Source: Luteimonas padinae (lineage in GTDB: Bacteria > Pseudomonadota > Gammaproteobacteria > Xanthomonadales > Xanthomonadaceae). Taken from it: a stretch of DNA of 64,000 nt. Under the pieces are notes generated by a model that worked only from the letters and a program-made list of their open reading frames with translations, was not told where the DNA came from and made no database searches. The translations under genes and the position numbers were made by a program. Each line of letters begins with the position of its first letter. Position 1 is the first letter of the stretch. The DNA lies in the NCBI RefSeq assembly GCF_014652935.1, contig NZ_BMZT01000010.1, positions 56,716 through 120,715 on the forward strand, in the 5' to 3' direction. Shown in pieces: positions 2,421 through 60,820 of the stretch.

Positions 2421-3107
2421 TCAGGCCTCGCAGCCCTCGGGGCCGCAGCGGCCGCCGTCGTCCTGGCCGGCGGCCGGGGGCGGCGCCAGTTCGCGCAGCA
2501 CGTCGGCCAGGGCCTCGGGCGGATGCGCGCCCTGGATGCCTTGGCGGCCGTCGATGACGAAGGTCGGCACCGCGCGGATGCCCATCGCCTGCGCGCGGCC
2601 GAGCGCGGCGCGCACTTCGGCCAGGCCCTCGTCGGAATCGAGCATCGCGCGCACCCGCGCCGCGTCGAGTCCGCCTTCGGCGCCCGCCGCGGCCAGCACC
2701 TCCGGATCGGCCAGGTTGCGGCCCTCGGCGAAGTGGGCGCGGAACAGGGCCTCGCCCACGGCATCGGCGTCCCCCTCGCGCGCGGCCAGCCACATCAGGC
2801 GGTGGCCGGGCAGGGTGGTCACGCGGACCTGGCCGCGGTCGAAGTCCATCGGCAGGCCCTCGGCGCGCGCCGTGTCCTGGGTCTGCGCGAGGATCTCGCC
2901 GGCGCGCCCGGCGCCGCCGAACTTCGCGGCATAGGCTTCGCGCAGCGGAACCGGCGTCGCGTCGGCCCCGGGGTCGAGCAGGAAGGGGTGCCAGTGGATC
3001 TCGACCGGCGGCGCGTCGTCGCCGAGCAGCTCCAGCGCGCGCCGCAGGCGGTGCTTGCCGATCCAGCACCAGGGGCAGACCAGGTCGGACCAGATGTCGA
3101 TGCGCAT
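2421..3107 (-). CDS. DsbA-family oxidoreductase, FrnE type
   Basis: A 228-residue thioredoxin-fold protein beginning MRIDIWSDLVCPWCWIG, with the redox motif C11-P-W-C14 close to the N-terminus. This layout (no signal peptide, CPWC at once, then an all-helical insert) is typical of the FrnE/2-hydroxychromene isomerase-like branch, which acts in the cytoplasm and has been linked to oxidative stress tolerance in other bacteria. The conserved cis-proline region is seen as RAVPTFVIDG near residue 180. The C-terminus ends CGPEGCEA, adding a second cysteine pair seen in some FrnE proteins. It starts 5 bases after the stop of the RDD gene on the same strand, so the two are very probably co-transcribed. 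Confidence 0.85.
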   Translation of the reverse strand: MRIDIWSDLVCPWCWIGKHRLRRALELLGDDAPPVEIHWHPFLLDPGADATPVPLREAYAAKFGGAGRAGEILAQTQDTARAEGLPMDFDRGQVRVTTLPGHRLMWLAAREGDADAVGEALFRAHFAEGRNLADPEVLAAAGAEGGLDAARVRAMLDSDEGLAEVRAALGRAQAMGIRAVPTFVIDGRQGIQGAHPPEALADVLRELAPPPAAGQDDGGRCGPEGCEA

Positions 3108-3112
3108 GCGGA

Positions 3113-3616
3113 TCAGCCCCTGTTCTTCGGTTCGTGGACCATGCGCGTACCCGCGGCGCGGTCGTGCCAGGTCAGGCGGTCGCGGTCGATCCAGGCCCAC
3201 CAGAAGCCCAGGCCGCCGGCCGCCAGCGACAGCGTGGCCACCGCGTAGCGCCGCCACAGCGTCGACCACGGCAGCGTCGCGCCGTCGGCGGAGGCCACGC
3301 GCAGCCGCCACGGGCGCAGGCCCAGGGTCTGGCCGCCGCGGCGCCAGCTCACCGTCGCGTAGGCGCCGGTGACCAGCCAGCAGCACAGCCACAGCAACCA
3401 CTGCAGCGCGCTCCAGGGTTCGATGTTCTCGCGCGGGGCGTGGCCGGCCAGGGTGTAGCCCAGCGCGAACAGGAAGCCGAGCAGGAACCACAGCGACAGC
3501 ACCGGCAGCAGGTCGTACAGCATCGCCAGCAGGCGCTTGCCGATGTGGGCGCCGACGCCGGCGCTGCCGGTGGCCGGCGGAAGGGTGTCGTGCGGGGCGT
3601 TCGCGTCCATCGCCAC
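3113..3616 (-). CDS. RDD family membrane protein
   Basis: A 167-residue protein with the RDD-domain pattern: KRLLAMLYDLLPVLSLWF in the first membrane helix, a second helix around residues 72-90, then GGQTLGLRPWRLRV and a last helix near residue 135 followed by DRLTWHDRAAGTRMV. RDD proteins are small inner-membrane proteins of mostly unknown function; a few have been tied to ion transport. Two ATG codons (3616 and 3610) are possible starts, and I kept the longer. It is the first gene of a two-gene minus-strand unit with the FrnE-type oxidoreductase and is divergent from xerD across 41 bases. Confidence 0.85.
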   Translation of the reverse strand: MAMDANAPHDTLPPATGSAGVGAHIGKRLLAMLYDLLPVLSLWFLLGFLFALGYTLAGHAPRENIEPWSALQWLLWLCCWLVTGAYATVSWRRGGQTLGLRPWRLRVASADGATLPWSTLWRRYAVATLSLAAGGLGFWWAWIDRDRLTWHDRAAGTRMVHEPKNRG

Positions 3617-3644
3617 AGGATAGCCGCCGCGCCGCGCGCGCCGC

Positions 3645-3650
3645 TAAGCT
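3645..3650 (+). promoter_or_regulatory. -10 element of xerD (possible leaderless start)
   Basis: TAAGCT preceded by GC fits the GCTANAAT-like -10 pattern seen before several genes in this window. It lies only 7 bases before the xerD ATG, so transcription would begin at or next to the start codon and the mRNA may be leaderless. No Shine-Dalgarno sequence is visible. No good -35 is seen. Confidence 0.35.
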
Positions 3651-3657
3651 GGCGGCG

Positions 3658-4626
3658 ATGACCGCGACCACGCCCGCAGAGCTCCGCGCCCGCGTGCATG
3701 CGCTGCCGCCGCTGCGCGATGCCGACGCCCGCGCGATCGAGGGTTTCATCGACGCCTGGTGGGCCGAGTCCGGCGCCGCGCGGCAGACGCTGGACAGCTA
3801 CCGCCGCGACCTGCAGGGGTTCGCGCGCTGGCGCGATCGCGGCGACATCACCGGCGCCGACCGCGCCGGCCTGTTCGACTACCTGGCCTGGCGCAGCCGC
3901 GAGGGCTGGTCGCCGCGCAGCAATGCGCGCCTGCTGTCGGCGCTGCGCGCGTTCTACGGCTGGCGCCTGCGCCAGGGCCTGCGCGCGGACGATCCGACCG
4001 CGCTGCTGGAGCCGCCGCGGCTGCCGCGGCTGCTGCCCAGGGCGCTGTCGGAGCGCGAGGTCGAGCGCCTGCTCGAAGCCCCGGCCGTCGAGGCCGCGGA
4101 GGGGCTGCGCGACCGCACCATGCTCGAGCTGATGTACGCCTGCGGGCTGCGCGTGAGCGAGCTGGTGGAACTCCCGGCCAACGGCGTGAACCTGCGCCAG
4201 GGCGTGCTGCGCATCACCGGCAAGGGCGGCCGCGACCGCCTGGTGCCGCTGGGCGAGGAGGCGCGCGACTGGCTCGAGCGCTATCTCGCCCGGGCGCGGC
4301 CGGCGCTGGCGGGCGGCAGGCCGGTGCCGGGCGACGCGCGCGGCGAGGCGCCGCTGTTCATCGACGCGCGGCGCAGGGCGCTGTCGCGGCAGGCGTTCTG
4401 GTCCACGGTCAAGCGCCACGCCGCCGCGGCCGACATCGATCCCGGCAAGGTCAGCCCGCACGGCCTGCGCCACAGCTTCGCCACCCACCTGCTCAACCAC
4501 GGCGCCGACCTGCGCTCGCTGCAGATGCTGCTGGGCCACAGTTCGCTGTCCACCACCCAGATCTACACCCTGGTGGCGCGCGAGCAGCTCAAGCAGCTGC
4601 ATGCCCGCCACCACCCGCGTGCCTGA
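3658..4626 (+). CDS. xerD: Site-specific tyrosine recombinase XerD
   Basis: XerD works with XerC at the dif site to resolve chromosome dimers at cell division. The protein has 322 residues: an N-terminal SAM-like core-binding domain (about 25-110) and a C-terminal catalytic domain (about 130-310). All catalytic residues are present: R165 in CGLRVSEL, K189 in GKGGRDR, H268 and R271 in HGLRHSF, H294 in LLGHSS and nucleophile Y303 in TTQIYT. The end HARHHPRA and the segment FATHLLNHGADLRSLQMLLG match XerD better than XerC. It is a single gene, divergent from the RDD gene and followed by a GC hairpin before dsbC. The call is firm; the start follows the only in-frame ATG near the proposed -10. Confidence 0.95.
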   Translation: MTATTPAELRARVHALPPLRDADARAIEGFIDAWWAESGAARQTLDSYRRDLQGFARWRDRGDITGADRAGLFDYLAWRSREGWSPRSNARLLSALRAFYGWRLRQGLRADDPTALLEPPRLPRLLPRALSEREVERLLEAPAVEAAEGLRDRTMLELMYACGLRVSELVELPANGVNLRQGVLRITGKGGRDRLVPLGEEARDWLERYLARARPALAGGRPVPGDARGEAPLFIDARRRALSRQAFWSTVKRHAAAADIDPGKVSPHGLRHSFATHLLNHGADLRSLQMLLGHSSLSTTQIYTLVAREQLKQLHARHHPRA

Positions 4627-29960: not shown

Positions 29961-30680
29961 ATGAGCGGGCCGGGCGAGCCAGGGCGTCATTCGAGGCCGC
30001 AGGCGCACGAGGTGCTGTGCCGCGCCCTGGTGCTGTTCAGCGTGGCCGCGCGCGCCGCGATGGAGGCCGATGCCGCGCGCCGCGATGCCGCGGACTGGCA
30101 GGTGCGGATGCTGGCGTGGCTGGAGCGCACCGGGCTGGACCGGGCGCTGGAGCCGGACGAGGCCCGCCTGCTGCAGGCGCCCCCCGGCAGCCTGGGCGAC
30201 GCCGACGTCCGCGACGCGAGCTGGCGTGCCGAAGGCGTGTACGTGCTGGCCTGGGCGCTGGGCGCGCATCCGCCGCTGGCGCATGACCGGCTGGCCGATC
30301 CGAACGAACTCGCCGGCCCGCTGCGCTTCCTCGACGACGCGGCGCTGGACGGCGAGGAGGCCCCCAGCCTGCGCGCCGAGCACGAGGTCGACGGCTTCCT
30401 GGCGCGCCAGCTGGCCGTGCACTGGCGCCTGCGCGAATACTCGCTGCGCCCGGGACCGATGGACTTCGCCGCGGTCGTCGCCAGCGGCGGCTGGGCGCGC
30501 CTGGACATCGATGCCGCCGCGCTCCTCGACGGCGACCTCGCCATCGACGGCGACACCATCGATTGCGCCGAGCCCGACGCGATCGCCCGCTGCACCAGCA
30601 TCGCCAGCGAGCGCCATCGCGCCGCGAGCTGGCTGGCCGGTGCCGACCCCGTCTACTCCAGAGTGGAAAACATCACCTGA
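29961..30680 (+). CDS. DUF4272-like protein
   Basis: A 239-residue soluble protein of unknown function. The N-terminal part resembles DUF4272: a helix EVLCRALVLFSVAARAAM, then an Arg/Trp-rich stretch and WRAEGVYVLAWALGAHPPL, which matches the family's Trp-rich core. The C-terminal part (VDGFLARQLAVHWRLREY, PMDFAAVV) is also family-like. It sits between nrdR (4-base gap) and ribD (TGATG overlap), so it must be co-transcribed with the riboflavin genes. Nothing links it to riboflavin chemistry. Confidence 0.7.
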   Translation: MSGPGEPGRHSRPQAHEVLCRALVLFSVAARAAMEADAARRDAADWQVRMLAWLERTGLDRALEPDEARLLQAPPGSLGDADVRDASWRAEGVYVLAWALGAHPPLAHDRLADPNELAGPLRFLDDAALDGEEAPSLRAEHEVDGFLARQLAVHWRLREYSLRPGPMDFAAVVASGGWARLDIDAAALLDGDLAIDGDTIDCAEPDAIARCTSIASERHRAASWLAGADPVYSRVENIT

Positions 30681-31798
30681 TGCAGGGCCATTCCGAAACC
30701 GACCACGTGATGATGGCGCGCGCGCTGCGGCTGGCCGAGCGCGGCGCCTGGACCACGAAGCCCAACCCGATGGTGGGCTGCGTGCTGGCCCACGGCAGCG
30801 ACGTGGTGGGCGAGGGCTGGCACCAGCGCCAGGGCGGGCCGCATGCCGAAGTGTTCGCGCTCGAGGCCGCGGGCGACCGCGCGCGCGGCGCCACCGCCTA
30901 CGTCACGCTGGAACCCTGCGCGCACACCGGCCGCACCGGGCCGTGCGCCGATGCGCTGGTCGCCGCGGGCGTGTCGCGGGTGGTCGCGGCCATGCGTGAT
31001 CCCTTCCCGCAGGTCGATGGCAGCGGCTTCGAACGCCTGCGCGCCGCCGGCATCGAGGTCTCGCACGGCCTGATGGAAGCGGCTGCGCAGGCGCTCAACC
31101 GCGGCTACGTCTCGCGCGTGGTGCGCGGCCGGCCGTGGCTGCGGGTGAAGCTGGCGATGAGCCTGGACGGCCATACCGCGCTGGCCAGCGGCGAGTCGAA
31201 GTGGATCAGCGGCGAGGCCTCGCGCCGCGACGTGATGCGCTGGCGCGCGCGGGCCGGGGCGCTGCTGACCGGCTCCGGCACGGTGATGGCCGACGACCCG
31301 CAGCTGACCGTGCGCCTGGACGACGACGCGGACTTCGTGCCGCCGCTGCGCGTGGTGCTCGATCCCGGCCTGGCCACGGTCGCGCGCGGCCGCGTGCGCG
31401 AGGGCGATGCGCCCACGCTGTACGTGCACGCCGCCAACGCCAAGCCGCCGCGGGAACTCGGCAGCGACCGGGTCGCGGTGCCGGCGCAGGGCAACGCGCT
31501 CGACCTGCACGCCGTGCTGCGGATGCTGGCCGAGCGCGGCATCAACGAGGTGCAGGTCGAGGCCGGCGCCACGCTCGCCGGTGCGTTCATGCGCGCCGGG
31601 CTGGTCGACGAGGTGCTGCTGTACATGGCGCCGGTGCTGCTGGGCGCGCAGGCGCGTCCGCTGTTCGCCGGCCTCGACATCCACGACATGACGCAGCGGA
31701 TGGCGCTGCGGATCGAAGACATCGTCAGCGTCGGAGACGACCTGCGCCTGCGCCTGGTGCCCGCGCAGCCGTCGGGCGACGCCGGCGCGGCAGGATAG
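30680..31798 (+). CDS. ribD: Riboflavin biosynthesis deaminase/reductase RibD
   Basis: Bifunctional second and third steps of riboflavin synthesis: deaminates the pyrimidine product of GTP cyclohydrolase II, then reduces its ribose. The 372-residue protein has a zinc deaminase domain (1-145; H55-A-E57, C80 and C89 in PCAHTGRTGPC) and a DHFR-like reductase domain (about 150-365; RPWLRVKLAMSLDG, KWISGEASR). The ATG overlaps the stop of the DUF4272 gene. No FMN riboswitch is visible ahead of it. Confidence 0.96.
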   Translation: MQGHSETDHVMMARALRLAERGAWTTKPNPMVGCVLAHGSDVVGEGWHQRQGGPHAEVFALEAAGDRARGATAYVTLEPCAHTGRTGPCADALVAAGVSRVVAAMRDPFPQVDGSGFERLRAAGIEVSHGLMEAAAQALNRGYVSRVVRGRPWLRVKLAMSLDGHTALASGESKWISGEASRRDVMRWRARAGALLTGSGTVMADDPQLTVRLDDDADFVPPLRVVLDPGLATVARGRVREGDAPTLYVHAANAKPPRELGSDRVAVPAQGNALDLHAVLRMLAERGINEVQVEAGATLAGAFMRAGLVDEVLLYMAPVLLGAQARPLFAGLDIHDMTQRMALRIEDIVSVGDDLRLRLVPAQPSGDAGAAG

Positions 31799-42663: not shown

Positions 42664-44135
42664 GCCGCCGCATGCGCCTGCGCGAACTGCTGCCCGACGT
42701 GGCCGGCGTGCCGGACGCGCTCGAGGTGTCGGGCCTGGTGCTCGACAGCCGCCAGGTGCGCGCGGGCGACGGTTTTGTCGCCATCGGCGGCTTCGGCACG
42801 CACGGGCTTCACTTCGCCGCGCAGGCGCTGGCCGACGGCGCCGCGGCCGTGATGTACGAGCCGCCGGTGCCGGCAGGCGTGCCCGCGCCGCCCGCCGGCG
42901 CGATCGCCGTGCCCGGGCTGCGTGCGCGCATGGGCGCGATGGCCGACGCCTTCCACGGCCGGCCCTCGGCCGCGATGGCGACGGTCGCGGTGACCGGCAC
43001 CAACGGCAAGACCTCCACCGTGCAGCTGCTGGCGCAGGCCTGGGAGCTGCTCGGCCGCCGCGCCGCCACCATCGGCACGCTGGGCGCGGGCCTCCACGGC
43101 GACGTGCGCCCGACCGGCTTCACCACGCCGCTGGTGCTGCAGGTGCATGAGCTGCTCGCGCAGCTGCGCGACGCCGGCGCGCAGGCGGTGGCGATGGAGA
43201 CCAGTTCGCATGCGCTCGACCAGGGCCGCGTGGACGCGGTGCATTTCCAGGTCGGCGTGTTCACCAACCTCACCCGCGACCACCTCGACTACCACGGCGA
43301 CATGGCGACCTACGGCGCCGCCAAGGAGCGCCTGTTCGCGGTGCCGGGCCTGGAGGCCGCGGTGGTCAACATCGACGACGGCTTCGGCCGTGCGCTGTTC
43401 GCGCGCCTGCCGGCCGGGCTGCGCCGCATCGGCACCAGCGCGCGCGGCGACGCCGACGCCGAGGTCGCCGCGTCCGGCGTCATGCTCGACGCGGCCGGCA
43501 TCGCCTTCGACCTGCGCGTGGGCGCGGACACACTGCCCGTGCGCTCGCCGCTGCTGGGCGGCTTCAACGTCGAGAACCTGCTGGCGGTGGCCGGCGTGCT
43601 GCACGCGCAGGGCGTCGATGCCGCCGGCATCGCGCGCGCGCTGGCCAGGCTGGAGCCGATCGCCGGCCGCATGAACCGCCTCGGCGGCCACGATGGCCTG
43701 CCGCTGGTGGTGGTCGACTACTCGCACACCCCTGACGCCCTGGTGCAGGCGCTGGCGAGCGTGCGCGCGCACGCGGCCGGCCGCATCACCTGCGTGTTCG
43801 GCTGCGGCGGCGAGCGCGACCGCGGCAAGCGCCCCGAGATGGCTGCTGCGGCCGAGCAGGGCGCCGACGCCGTGGTGGTGACCGACGACAACCCGCGCGC
43901 CGAGGACGGCAACGCCATCGTCGCCGACATCATGGCGGGCTTCAGCGATGCGTCCCGGGTCACGGTCGAGCGCGACCGCGCCGCGGCCATCACGCGCGCC
44001 ATTGGCGCCGCCGGCCCCGGCGACATCGTGCTGGTCGCCGGCAAGGGCCACGAGCCCTACCAGGAGATCGACGGCGTGCGCCATCCCTTCGACGACCGCG
44101 ACGTGGCGCAGCGCGCCCTCGGAGGCCGGGCATGA
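42660..44135 (+). CDS. murE: UDP-MurNAc-tripeptide synthetase MurE
   Basis: Adds the third residue of the stem peptide. It has 491 residues from a GTG in the GTGA overlap. The P-loop is GTNGKT (113-118), the carbamylated-lysine region follows, and the substrate motif is D410-N-P-R413 in TDDNPRAED, which marks meso-diaminopimelate as substrate rather than lysine. The C-terminal domain is complete ([12 protein letters not shown]). Confidence 0.96.
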
Positions 44136-45661
44136 AGCCGATCGCGCTCTCGCGGATCGCACAGGCCTGCAACGGCCGCCTGCACGGCGACGACGTCGTG
44201 GTCGACGCGGTCGTGAGTGACAGCCGCACGCTGGCCCCGGTGGGCGCGCCGCTGTTCGTCGCGATCGCCGGCGAGAATTTCGACGGCCACGCGCACGTCG
44301 CCGCGGCCGCCGCCAGTGGCGCAGCGGCGGCGCTGGTGTCGCGCGTGGTCGACGCACCGCTGCCCCAGGTCGTGGTCGGCGATACCGTCGAAGCGCTGGG
44401 TTCGCTCGCGCGGACGCTGCAGGCCGCGCGCGTGGCGCAGTCGGTGGTCGCCATCACCGGCAGCAACGGCAAGACCAGCGTCAAGGAGCTCACGCTCTCG
44501 ATCCTCCGCCGGTTCGCCTCCGTGGTCGCCAGCCCCGGCAACCGCAACAACGAGATCGGCCTGCCTCTGGCGATCATCGATGCCGACGACGCGGCGCGCT
44601 TCGCGGTGTACGAGATGGGCGCCGGCAAGCCGGGCGACATCGCCTATCTCGCGGGCATCGCCTCGCCGCGCGTGGCGCTGGTCAACAACATCGCGCCGGC
44701 GCATCTCGAGCGCATGGGAACCATCGCCAATGTCGCCGGCGTCAAGGGCGCGATCTACGACGCGCTGCCGGCCGACGGCACCGCGGTGGTCAATGCCGAC
44801 GACGCGTTCGCCTCGTTCTTCGCCGAGCGCGCGCACGGCCGCCGGATCCTCCGCTTCGGCTTCGGGCCGCGCGCCGACGTGCGCGTGCGCGACCTCGTGC
44901 TGCGCGAGGATGGCAGCGACTTCGTGCTGGAGACGCCGGCAGGCGAGGCCGCCGTGTCGCTGGCGCTGCCCGGACGGCACAACGTCGCCAATGCCATGGC
45001 GGCGGCGGCACTGGCTCTGGCCTGCGACGCGCCGCTGGCTGCGATCGCCGAGGGGCTCACTCTGGCGCGGCCGGTGCAGGGCCGCCTGGTGCGCCACCGC
45101 CTGCCGGGCGCGTGGCTGGTGGACGACAGCTACAACGCCAATCCGGGCTCGCTGGCCGCGGCCATCGACACCCTGGCCACGGCCAGCGGCGGTGGCTGGC
45201 TGGTGCTGGGCGACATGCGCGAGCTGGGCGACGAAGCACAAGCGCTGCACGCGGCCGCCGGCCGCCGCGCGCGCGAGGCTGGCGTGGCGCGGCTGTTCGC
45301 GCTGGGCGCGCTGGCGGCGAAGGCGGCGGAGGCCTTTGGCGAAGGCGGCGAAGTGTTCGCGTCGCACGAAGCGCTGGCCGCTGCTGTGGGAGCGGCTATA
45401 GCCGCGATCGCCGTGCCGCGGATGCCGGCTGCCGACGATGCCCCGGTCGCGGCTGTAGCCGCTCCTACAGGGGCAGTTCGTCCGGCCGCAGGGGCAGGTG
45501 GACCGGCCACGGAGGCAGATCGTCCGGCCGCAGGGGCAGGTCGATCGGGCGCAGAGGCGGTCGCGCCGGTGCCCACGGTGCTGGTGAAGGGTTCGCGCGG
45601 CAGCGCGATGGATCGCGTGGTCCGCGCGCTTCTTGAAGGAGTCGACACCGATGCTGCTTGA
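44132..45661 (+). CDS. murF: UDP-MurNAc-tripeptide--D-Ala-D-Ala ligase MurF with REP-derived insert
   Basis: Adds D-Ala-D-Ala to the muropeptide precursor. It has 509 residues against about 450 normally. The P-loop is GSNGKT (110-115), with [11 protein letters not shown] and [16 protein letters not shown] both intact. The extra length is an insert at about residues 417-477, between the last helices of the C-terminal domain and the final strand ([15 protein letters not shown]). The insert is encoded by two facing REP elements and a run of about 21-base repeats (RPAAGAG-type peptide). The reading frame stays open, so the enzyme is presumably active with a disordered loop. It overlaps mraY by 11 bases. 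Confidence 0.95.
45384..45471. repeat. Facing REP-like pair inside murF
   Basis: A copy at 45384-45410 (CTGTGGGAGCGGCTATAG followed by CCGCGATCG) and an inverted copy at 45444-45471 (GGTCGCGGCTGTAGCCGC followed by TCCTACAGG), both read through in frame by murF. The arms could pair into a long hairpin in the mRNA. Confidence 0.9.
45474..45557 (+). repeat. Short tandem repeat inside murF, next to the REP pair
   Basis: Four degenerate units of about 21 bases built around CGTCCGGCCGCAGGGGCAG, encoding seven-residue steps such as VRPAAGA. They begin 2 bases after the second REP. The repeat keeps the murF frame, since the unit is a multiple of three. Confidence 0.75.
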
Positions 45662-56607: not shown

Positions 56608-56684
56608 CTGTAGGAGCGGCTATAGCCGCGACCAGCATTCCCGTGTATCGAGATATCCGGTCGCGGCTGTAGCCGCTCCTACAG
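56608..56684. repeat. Facing REP-like pair after the M23 gene
   Basis: Copies at 56608-56633 (CTGTAGGAGCGGCTATAG followed by CCGCGACC) and, inverted, 56659-56684 (GGTCGCGGCTGTAGCCGC followed by TCCTACAG). They may terminate the M23 transcript. A 23-base tandem repeat starts at the next base. Confidence 0.9.
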
Positions 56685-56776
56685 AAGGGGCCGGTGCGTG
56701 CGATCGGAAAGGGGCCGGGCGTGCGATCAGAAGGGGCCCGGGCGTGCGATCAGAAGGGGCCCGGGGCGTGCGATCG
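56685..56776. repeat. 23-bp tandem repeat upstream of secA
   Basis: Four consecutive units of exactly 23 bases (56685, 56708, 56731, 56754), the third reading AAGGGGCCCGGGCGTGCG then ATCAG. Units 2-4 are nearly identical; unit 1 differs at a few bases. The array abuts the inverted REP and ends 40 bases before the secA -10. Confidence 0.9.
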
Positions 56777-56917: not shown

Positions 56918-59653
<2,736 letters not shown>

Positions 59654-59662
59654 CCCAGGGCG

Positions 59663-60820
59663 ATGAAGGTGGTCGACGTCGTCGCCGCCGTCATCACCGA
59701 CGCCCGCGGCCGGATCCTGCTGGCGCGACGCACCGAGGGCCGCGACCTCGCCGGCCTGTGGGAATTCCCTGGCGGCAAGCGCGAGCCCGGCGAGACGCCG
59801 GAGGCCGCGCTGGTGCGCGAGCTGCATGAAGAGCTGGGCATCGTCGCCCAGGTCGGCGCCCACCTCATCACCGTCCCACAGCGCTATCCCGACAAGCGCC
59901 TGCGCCTGGACGTGCGCCACGTCAGCCGCTGGACAGGGCTTCCCCGCGGCCGCGAAGGCCAGGCCCTGGCCTGGGTGCCGCCGCACAAGCTGGCGAGCTA
60001 CGCCATGCCGCCCGCGGACATCCCCGTGGTAGCGGCCCTGCTGCAGCCCGACCGCTACGCCATCACCCCCACCCCCACCCCTGCCGCTGCCGTCGCCCCC
60101 GTGGCCACTCCCGCCACTCTTGCCGTCCCCGCCCCCGACAACCCCGCCACTCTTGTCGCCTCCGCCCGCGCCACTCTTGCGGCCCCCCCTCCCTGTAGGA
60201 GCGGCTACAGCCGCGACCACACCCGCAACCACACCCGCGAAGACAAGCCCGCACCCGCAGCCCCACCTTCAGCCACGGCCCCGGAAGCCACCGCCGCCTC
60301 GTGGCTTACCGGCCTGGACGCCACCCTGGCCACCGGCATCACCCGCTTGCAGTTCCGAGTGCCGGGCATAGCGCCCACGCTCTACCACGAACTCGCCACG
60401 GCCACCGCCGAGCGCTGCCGCCGCGCCGGCGCCGCGCTGCTCCTCAACGCCGACATCCCCCTGGCCCGCGAACTCGGAACCGGCGTGCACCTGCGCGCCT
60501 CGCAGCTGGCCGCGCTCAACGGGCGCCCGCCACTGACCGAAGGCGCGCTGCTGGCGGCCTCGTGCCACACGGCCGCGGATCTCGAGCATGCGGCGCGGCT
60601 GGGCTGCGATTTCGTGGTGCTGGGGGCGGTGAAGCCGACCGCCACGCACCCGGGCGAGCCGGGCATCGGTTGGGAGGCATTTGCAGCGCTGCGGGAGTCG
60701 GTGAGCCTGCCGGTGTATGCGATCGGAGGACTGGGGCCGGAGGACATGGATGACGCCCGGCGCCAGGGCGCGCAGGGGGTTGCGGGAATACGCGCACTGT
60801 GGGGCGGTCGCGGCACATAG
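59663..60820 (+). CDS. Nudix hydrolase fused to ThiE/TenI-like domain
   Basis: A two-domain protein of 385 residues, where homologues have about 310-320. Residues 1-130 are a MutT-type Nudix domain with a perfect Nudix box G38-x5-E44-x7-R52-E-L-x-E56-E57-x-G59 that would hydrolyse oxidised dGTP. Residues 220-385 are a thiamine-phosphate-synthase-like barrel (LLLNADIPLARELGTGVHL, GCDFVVLGAVKPTATHPG, PVYAIGGLGPEDM), of unproven activity. The linker (about 130-220) is Pro/Ala/Thr-rich and contains a translated REP element (CRSGYSRDH) after three CGCCACTCTTG repeats. It follows secA closely, as mutT does in E. coli. Confidence 0.9.
   Translation: MKVVDVVAAVITDARGRILLARRTEGRDLAGLWEFPGGKREPGETPEAALVRELHEELGIVAQVGAHLITVPQRYPDKRLRLDVRHVSRWTGLPRGREGQALAWVPPHKLASYAMPPADIPVVAALLQPDRYAITPTPTPAAAVAPVATPATLAVPAPDNPATLVASARATLAAPPPCRSGYSRDHTRNHTREDKPAPAAPPSATAPEATAASWLTGLDATLATGITRLQFRVPGIAPTLYHELATATAERCRRAGAALLLNADIPLARELGTGVHLRASQLAALNGRPPLTEGALLAASCHTAADLEHAARLGCDFVVLGAVKPTATHPGEPGIGWEAFAALRESVSLPVYAIGGLGPEDMDDARRQGAQGVAGIRALWGGRGT
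60193..60217. repeat. REP-like element inside the Nudix-ThiE linker
   Basis: CTGTAGGAGCGGCTACAG followed by CCGCGACC, in the forward orientation and read in the frame that gives C-R-S-G-Y-S-R-D. Three copies of CGCCACTCTTG (60112, 60145, 60169) lie just before it. Confidence 0.9.

Follow-up and report, generated by a model that had tools for sequence, protein, structure and literature searches.

The locus analysed here raises the question of how a REP, a 22-nt palindromic repeat of the GTAG type, came to lie in frame between the two domains of a Nudix-ThiE fusion protein, and what became of it there. The gene lies in a stretch of 64,000 nucleotides from Luteimonas padinae, hereafter called the window. 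In the following, REPIN denotes a non-autonomous mobile element composed of two inverted GTAG-type REPs. The coordinates of the features are collected in Table 1.

Table 1. Features of the murF and Nudix-ThiE genes, with positions numbered from the first letter of the window.
Feature	Positions	Strand	Remarks
murF	44132..45661	+	509 aa; second window gene with an in-frame REPIN
MurF REPIN, first arm	45386..45407	+	read as VGAAIAAI
MurF REPIN, second, inverted arm	45447..45468	-	reads VAAVAAPT on the + strand; spacer common to G072
In-frame 21-nt tandem array behind the MurF REPIN	45468..45563	+	about one unit in G018
Nudix-ThiE fusion gene	59663..60820	+	ORF, 385 aa plus stop
Nudix part	59663..60085	+	residues 1-141, profile match
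Extra linker, missing in homologues	60080..60286	+	about residues 140-208
Three CGCCACTCTTG copies	60112-60122, 60145-60155, 60169-60179	+	one codon phase
Exact REP	60195..60216	+	read as CRSGYSRD; probable intact first arm of a former REPIN
12-nt tandem duplication ACACCCGCAACC	60207..60238	+	repeat search; overlaps the REP end
Probable decayed REPIN spacer and second arm	60217..60283	+	aligns with G018 once 12 nt are skipped
TMP-TENI (ThiE-like) domain	60293..60799	+	residues 211-379, profile match

The interdomain joint of the Nudix-ThiE protein

The protein contains the domains PF00293/PF14815 and PF02581 according to the Pfam profiles, and its architecture with both domains is that of NF006530 (PRK08999), which is matched at 387.3 bits against a cut-off of 245 (NCBIfam). 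The sequence-only reading of this DNA had placed a full REP, read as CRSGYSRDH, in the linker behind three CGCCACTCTTG repeats, and had judged the protein to be about 70 residues longer than its homologues. As shown in Table 1, the REP and the three repeats ahead of it are found as claimed: the core GTAGGAGCGGCTACAGCCGCGA has no mismatch, and its in-frame peptide CRSGYSRDH corresponds to residues 178-186. One REP arm is intact in this joint, and the second arm is decayed and weakly recognisable.

The Nudix-ThiE frame contains no ATG, GTG or TTG codon between residues 147 and 229, so no separate start is available between the REP and the ThiE domain, which begins at residue 211. A split gene with its own ThiE start in the window is unlikely for the same reason. 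Since the frame runs unbroken from one conserved domain to the other, we infer that the CRSGYSRDH peptide is translated. In a structure model obtained with AlphaFold2, with an alignment of 25 sequences as input, the pLDDT is at least 90 for 286 of the 385 residues and below 50 at residues 142-191 and 193-199; the insert in the joint is predicted to be disordered.

The genus set consisted of 52 Luteimonas genomes, 51 of which have the Nudix-ThiE protein, and the joint was inspected in each of the 50 besides that of the window. Its length, counted as the residues between two fixed anchors, which give no value for G015 and G063, is 104 residues in the window, 78 in both G072 and G068, 70 in G033, 66 in G018, and 27-43 in the remaining measured Luteimonas genomes. 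The window joint is about 70 residues longer than that of the homologues, in agreement with the earlier estimate, and the corresponding block is absent in all 24 of the named homologues aligned, which came from 80 loci of Luteimonas and other genera. Among these, Lysobacter concretionis L247 has a joint about 25 residues longer than that of the other named homologues, still without the block of about 70 residues. The two-domain homologue loci (n = 51) span at most 1005 nt, compared with 1155 nt in the window.

The joints of the window, G015, G072 and G018 match the REP with as few as 0-3 mismatches, and in the other 47 genus genomes the closest match in the joint has at least 6; a REP of either GTAG type described here is absent from the joint in 46 of the 50 other genus members. 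The same linker was found in none of these 46 REP-free genus members and in none of the 24 homologues. G068, one of the 46, has a long joint of different sequence (L063), which is about as long as that of G072, is without a REP and is rich in DADADAEAGADVDAD; it is a case of linker growth without a REP element.

The joints that do carry REPs differ in what they have kept. In G072, the joint holds a complete in-frame REPIN, i.e., a REP and an inverted REP, and in G018 it holds a diverged, decayed REPIN in the same frame, CRSGHSRDHACGEA. The G015 joint (L039) contains three REPs, of which one is forward and two are inverted. Beyond them the frame changes before the ThiE part, with the break near a G7TG6 run; the insertion may split the gene there, the run may be a slippage site, or the assembly, which is 89% complete, may be wrong at this point. 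G033, which is without the window REP family, carries two inverted copies of another GTAG unit, GTAGGTCGGGGCTACGCCCCCGAC, in frame in the same joint. The three REPs in G015 and the unrelated REP type in G033 indicate that this joint has been hit repeatedly.

The age of the insertion was approached through the sequence past the first REP arm. Between G072 and G018, 34 of 55 positions are identical there, and none of 20,000 shuffles is as good. Between the window and G018, 33 of 55 are identical when 12 nt are skipped, which is the period of the ACACCCGCAACC tandem duplication of the window; this fit is the best of 900 placements, and none of 500 shuffled tails is as good in an identical search. 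In a tree calculated for 14 genomes from parts of MurF, Nudix and LexA, G018 groups with the window genome G000 (94), and G072 joins next (100). These alignments and the tree suggest that the Nudix-ThiE insertion was probably a whole REPIN, which predates the split of the window species from its two sister species G018 and G072, with the second arm having decayed in two of the three. The CGCCACTCTTG array is absent in G018 and G072 even though both have the REP, and it is therefore probably younger than the REPIN.

Copies and pairing of the REP, and a RAYT-like gene

The REP carries a GTAG tag and a palindrome (GTAGGAGCGGCTACAGCCGCGA, with the stem GCGGC/GCCGC). The window contains 14 matches with at most 3 mismatches, compared with 0.10 expected from shuffles, and the 3.1-Mb genome contains 278 matches with at most 2 mismatches, compared with 4 for a reversed control. 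The copies are numerous and dispersed, with 214 exact to the degenerate pattern in the window genome. The exact pattern was counted within the genus, where it occurs 221 times in G072, 142 in G018, 61 in G006, 52 in G015, 5 in G012 and 4 in G061, and 0 times in the other 45 of the 52 genomes. This REP is found in the Nudix-ThiE joint in four of the five genomes with at least 50 copies, the exception being G006 with its 61 copies, and in none of the 46 others having the protein.

A total of 231 REPs in 150 clusters was examined. Of these, 224 were among the matches listed (100 of 278, 100 of 127 and 47 of 47 places), and the remaining 7 were further copies from the window. Two REPs are present in 69 of the 150 clusters, and they are inverted in 67 of these 69. 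Of the six reading frames of the REP, four contain no stop codon, and it gives four peptide types, differing by gene, one of which is GRSCSCSY.

The sequence-only reading had noted that the coding REPs of the Nudix-ThiE gene and murF both stand beside short tandem repeats. This is correct for both genes; a special link between tandem repeats and coding REPs does not emerge, since repeats adjoin 6 of the 9 clusters that are read through and 69 of the 141 other clusters (Fisher p = 0.49), compared with 110 of 600 random places. Tandem repeats were accordingly rejected as a mark of coding REPs, being common beside REPs generally. In the region 56610-56775, an inverted REP pair (56610-56631 and 56661-56682) is likewise followed directly by a 23-nt tandem array of 3.9 copies; here the REPs and the repeats lie outside the gene, ahead of the one that starts at 56918 and is presumably secA.

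The window genome has a single Y1_Tnp match, a RAYT-like gene (L239:3235-3714), which is weakly matched by PF01797 at 27.8 bits (cut-off 23) and encodes DHWHG, which we take to be an HUH-type motif. It is flanked on both sides by inverted REP pairs, as is usual for a RAYT, and the whole region (L239, about 3106-3822) is a probable REPtron. The mover of the REPINs is most likely this RAYT-like transposase.

MurF and the other genes read through REPs

As a second coding REP, the sequence-only reading had named that of murF, which is an essential gene. An inverted REP pair is indeed found there next to the 21-nt array (Table 1), in the region of the C-terminal domain, ahead of a conserved stretch of 14 residues. 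MurF was read in 30 of the 51 genomes in which it was matched. The REPIN and its spacer are common to the window and G072, and at the corresponding place G018 has only CTCCTGCAGG and about one unit of the array. Given the tree, the MurF REPIN reads as a gain common to the window and G072 that was later lost in G018. G015 has a REP peptide at the corresponding place. No second full-length copy of the MurF REPIN spacer was found among the REP loci fetched from the window genome.

It had also been suggested that the genome be searched for other frames with the REP core, and the search was productive: in 9 of the 150 clusters examined, the frame of a gene continues through the REP. The genes concerned are seven, namely those for Nudix-ThiE, MurF, LexA, DnaE2 (three clusters), an E2 acyltransferase, an ABC-F protein and a DnaJ-like protein. 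Seven of the clusters were called from codon scores on both flanks together with a frame open throughout, and the MurF and first DnaE2 REPINs, missed by the codon scores because one flank is short or repetitive, were added by hand. A looser scan gave 16 frames, among which several antisense or weak ones were left out of the count.

In four of the genes, the REP lies between two Pfam domains. Besides Nudix-ThiE, these are LexA, where it lies between the DNA-binding and peptidase domains, the E2 acyltransferase, where it lies between the E3-binding and catalytic domains, and the ABC-F protein, where it lies between the ABC domains. Not all read-through REPs sit in joints, as the MurF and DnaE2 cases demonstrate. 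The first REPIN of DnaE2 is near the N-terminus, the second is directly behind a PHP match that ends at profile position 99 of 164, and the third is within the HHH_6 match. In the region G000:C1:30289-38238, a second LexA homologue (30289-30954) precedes the DnaE2 gene with its three in-frame REPINs; REPs flank this gene on both sides as well, and at least 11 REPs lie between 31.6 and 38.2 kb.

These proteins were surveyed across the genus, with 30 loci read for LexA (50 genomes with a match), 26 of 29 looked at for ABC-F (52 genomes), 13 and a further 6, including G018 and G072, for E2 (41 genomes), and 20 of 22 looked at for DnaE2 (48 genomes). Among the loci read, the window genome and G072 carry REP peptides in the joints of LexA, ABC-F and E2 and in DnaE2. 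In G015 and G006, such peptides occur in the ABC-F and E2 joints and in DnaE2, and in G018 they occur in DnaE2. The MurF, LexA, ABC-F and E2 regions each have a REP in the window genome and G072, and none is recognisable there in G018.

In G006, the ABC-F joint (L376) contains about five head-to-tail REP units in frame and one inverted unit, and the PHP region of DnaE2 (L423) contains four head-to-tail units in frame. Several ABC-F and E2 joints of species that lack the window REP contain recurrent peptides of a PRAGEG type and of a RDSGVGSRES...NPQSPIPN type (L360, L361, L364, L365, L366, L370, L402, L404, L408), which look like translations of other repeat elements.

Origin of the insert and its relation to known repeats

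The account that we consider very probable is that a REPIN moved by a RAYT entered the Nudix-ThiE joint in frame in an ancestor shared by the window species, G018 and G072, where it was tolerated, read through and allowed to decay. A RAYT-like transposase would mobilise the REPINs, and one of them would have been inserted between the Nudix and ThiE-like domains. It would have survived there because the REP is open in four of six frames and because the joint would tolerate additional disordered residues. In the lineage of the window, one arm would have been kept intact as the rest decayed and the joint lengthened by short duplications, with the protein being read straight through the decayed element. 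The joints or loops of MurF, LexA, DnaE2, E2 and ABC-F would take up REPINs likewise, and these would later decay, duplicate or be lost. Insertion of a REP at such places would be nearly neutral.

The order of events could also have been the reverse, with the linker lengthened at the outset by slippage of short tandem repeats, as in other species, and the REP landing later in an already long, repetitive joint. In favour of this order are the three CGCCACTCTTG copies and the 12-nt duplication beside the REP, and the long joint of G068 without any REP. However, G018 and G072 have the REP and are without the CGCCACTCTTG array, and we regard this order as unlikely. Retention of the REP for a role of the palindrome in DNA or RNA, such as delaying ribosomes between the domains by a hairpin or protecting the mRNA, is an explanation to which we give a small probability. 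The RNA of the MurF REPIN is far more stable than its shuffles (-69.4 kcal/mol, z -6.6), the complete Nudix REPIN of G072 folds strongly as well, at -64 kcal/mol (fold energy alone), and one REP arm of the window is still exact. In the Nudix joint of the window, by contrast, the long hairpin has decayed, leaving the REP alone with -12.9 kcal/mol (z -2.0), and the value for G018 is -28.8 kcal/mol. The decay of this hairpin in two species and the absence of REPs from several regions of G018, which makes the elements look dispensable, argue against a function that has been kept, although the RNA hairpins of complete REPINs could matter while they are young.

A further alternative is that the REP peptides were selected because they alter the function of the protein, as in the mutator idea proposed for REP-tagged repair proteins (PMC3733652). 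Three of the seven genes have functions of this kind: LexA is part of SOS control, DnaE2 of error-prone synthesis and the MutT-like Nudix protein, by family only, of the cleaning of the nucleotide pool. Nevertheless, MurF, E2, ABC-F and the DnaJ-like protein are affected too, and the LexA insertion is absent in G018, so that we consider such selection very improbable.

In-frame GTAG REPs in genes are already known. According to PMC3733652 (2013), GTAG palindromes lie inside conserved genes of several species, including Xanthomonas and Stenotrophomonas, with dimers and groups common and DnaE2 among the targets; recB of two Xanthomonas species carries REPs at about the same site, and the tolerance is suggested there to be due to flexible linkers or loops. 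The intragenic GTAG/CGTC REPs of that study resemble the present ones in being GTAG REPs within genes, with DnaE2 as a common target. Its main text makes no mention of MutT, Nudix, ThiE, thiamine or MurF, and its additional file 3 may list a MutT or MurF case. A search of the literature returned no report of translated in-frame REPINs or palindromes in interdomain linkers, and for REPs in Luteimonas it returned one entry, which looked unrelated. What is new here is a further, well-dated case, with shared insertions that can be located on a tree, their decay and loss traced in a sister species, and one joint occupied by unrelated REP types.

The high-copy inverted REP pairs and the RAYT-like gene are also in line with the REPINs and RAYTs described in PMC3116915, PMC8049555 and PMC8266576. 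The Rickettsia palindromic elements (RPEs), as described in PMC10969869, are an older parallel, likewise short palindromic mobile DNA in frame in unrelated genes; they are about 150 bp long, whereas the REP described here is a 22-nt unit with a GTAG tag that occurs alone or in inverted pairs. RPEs are stated to end in CGTC (PMC3733652). The GTAG-tagged 22-nt unit, read as four different peptides across genes and not as one conserved peptide, does not belong to the RPEs. The enterobacterial RU repeats are also small mobile open-frame repeats fused into proteins; by their description, they are set apart from the present REP in being longer, 103-168 bp (PMC2759123).

REPs are named "extragenic", yet here a single genome has one family in frame within seven of its genes, and for annotators this means that a REP within an ORF is not always an annotation error. 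The linkers act as a natural assay of insertion tolerance, even in murF. Because insertion, retention, decay, tandem growth and loss can be placed on a species tree, the rate at which a mobile palindrome becomes protein is measurable. One joint can hold different repeats depending on the species, as with the two GTAG types in Nudix-ThiE, and the ABC-F and E2 joints have the window REP in one clade and other recurrent peptides (such as PRAGEG) elsewhere. We hold it to be an evenly balanced proposition that the interdomain joints of the genus are standing landing sites for unrelated palindromic repeats, in which case much of the linker sequence would be translated, decaying mobile DNA, and the length of the linkers would be set by gain, tandem growth and loss.
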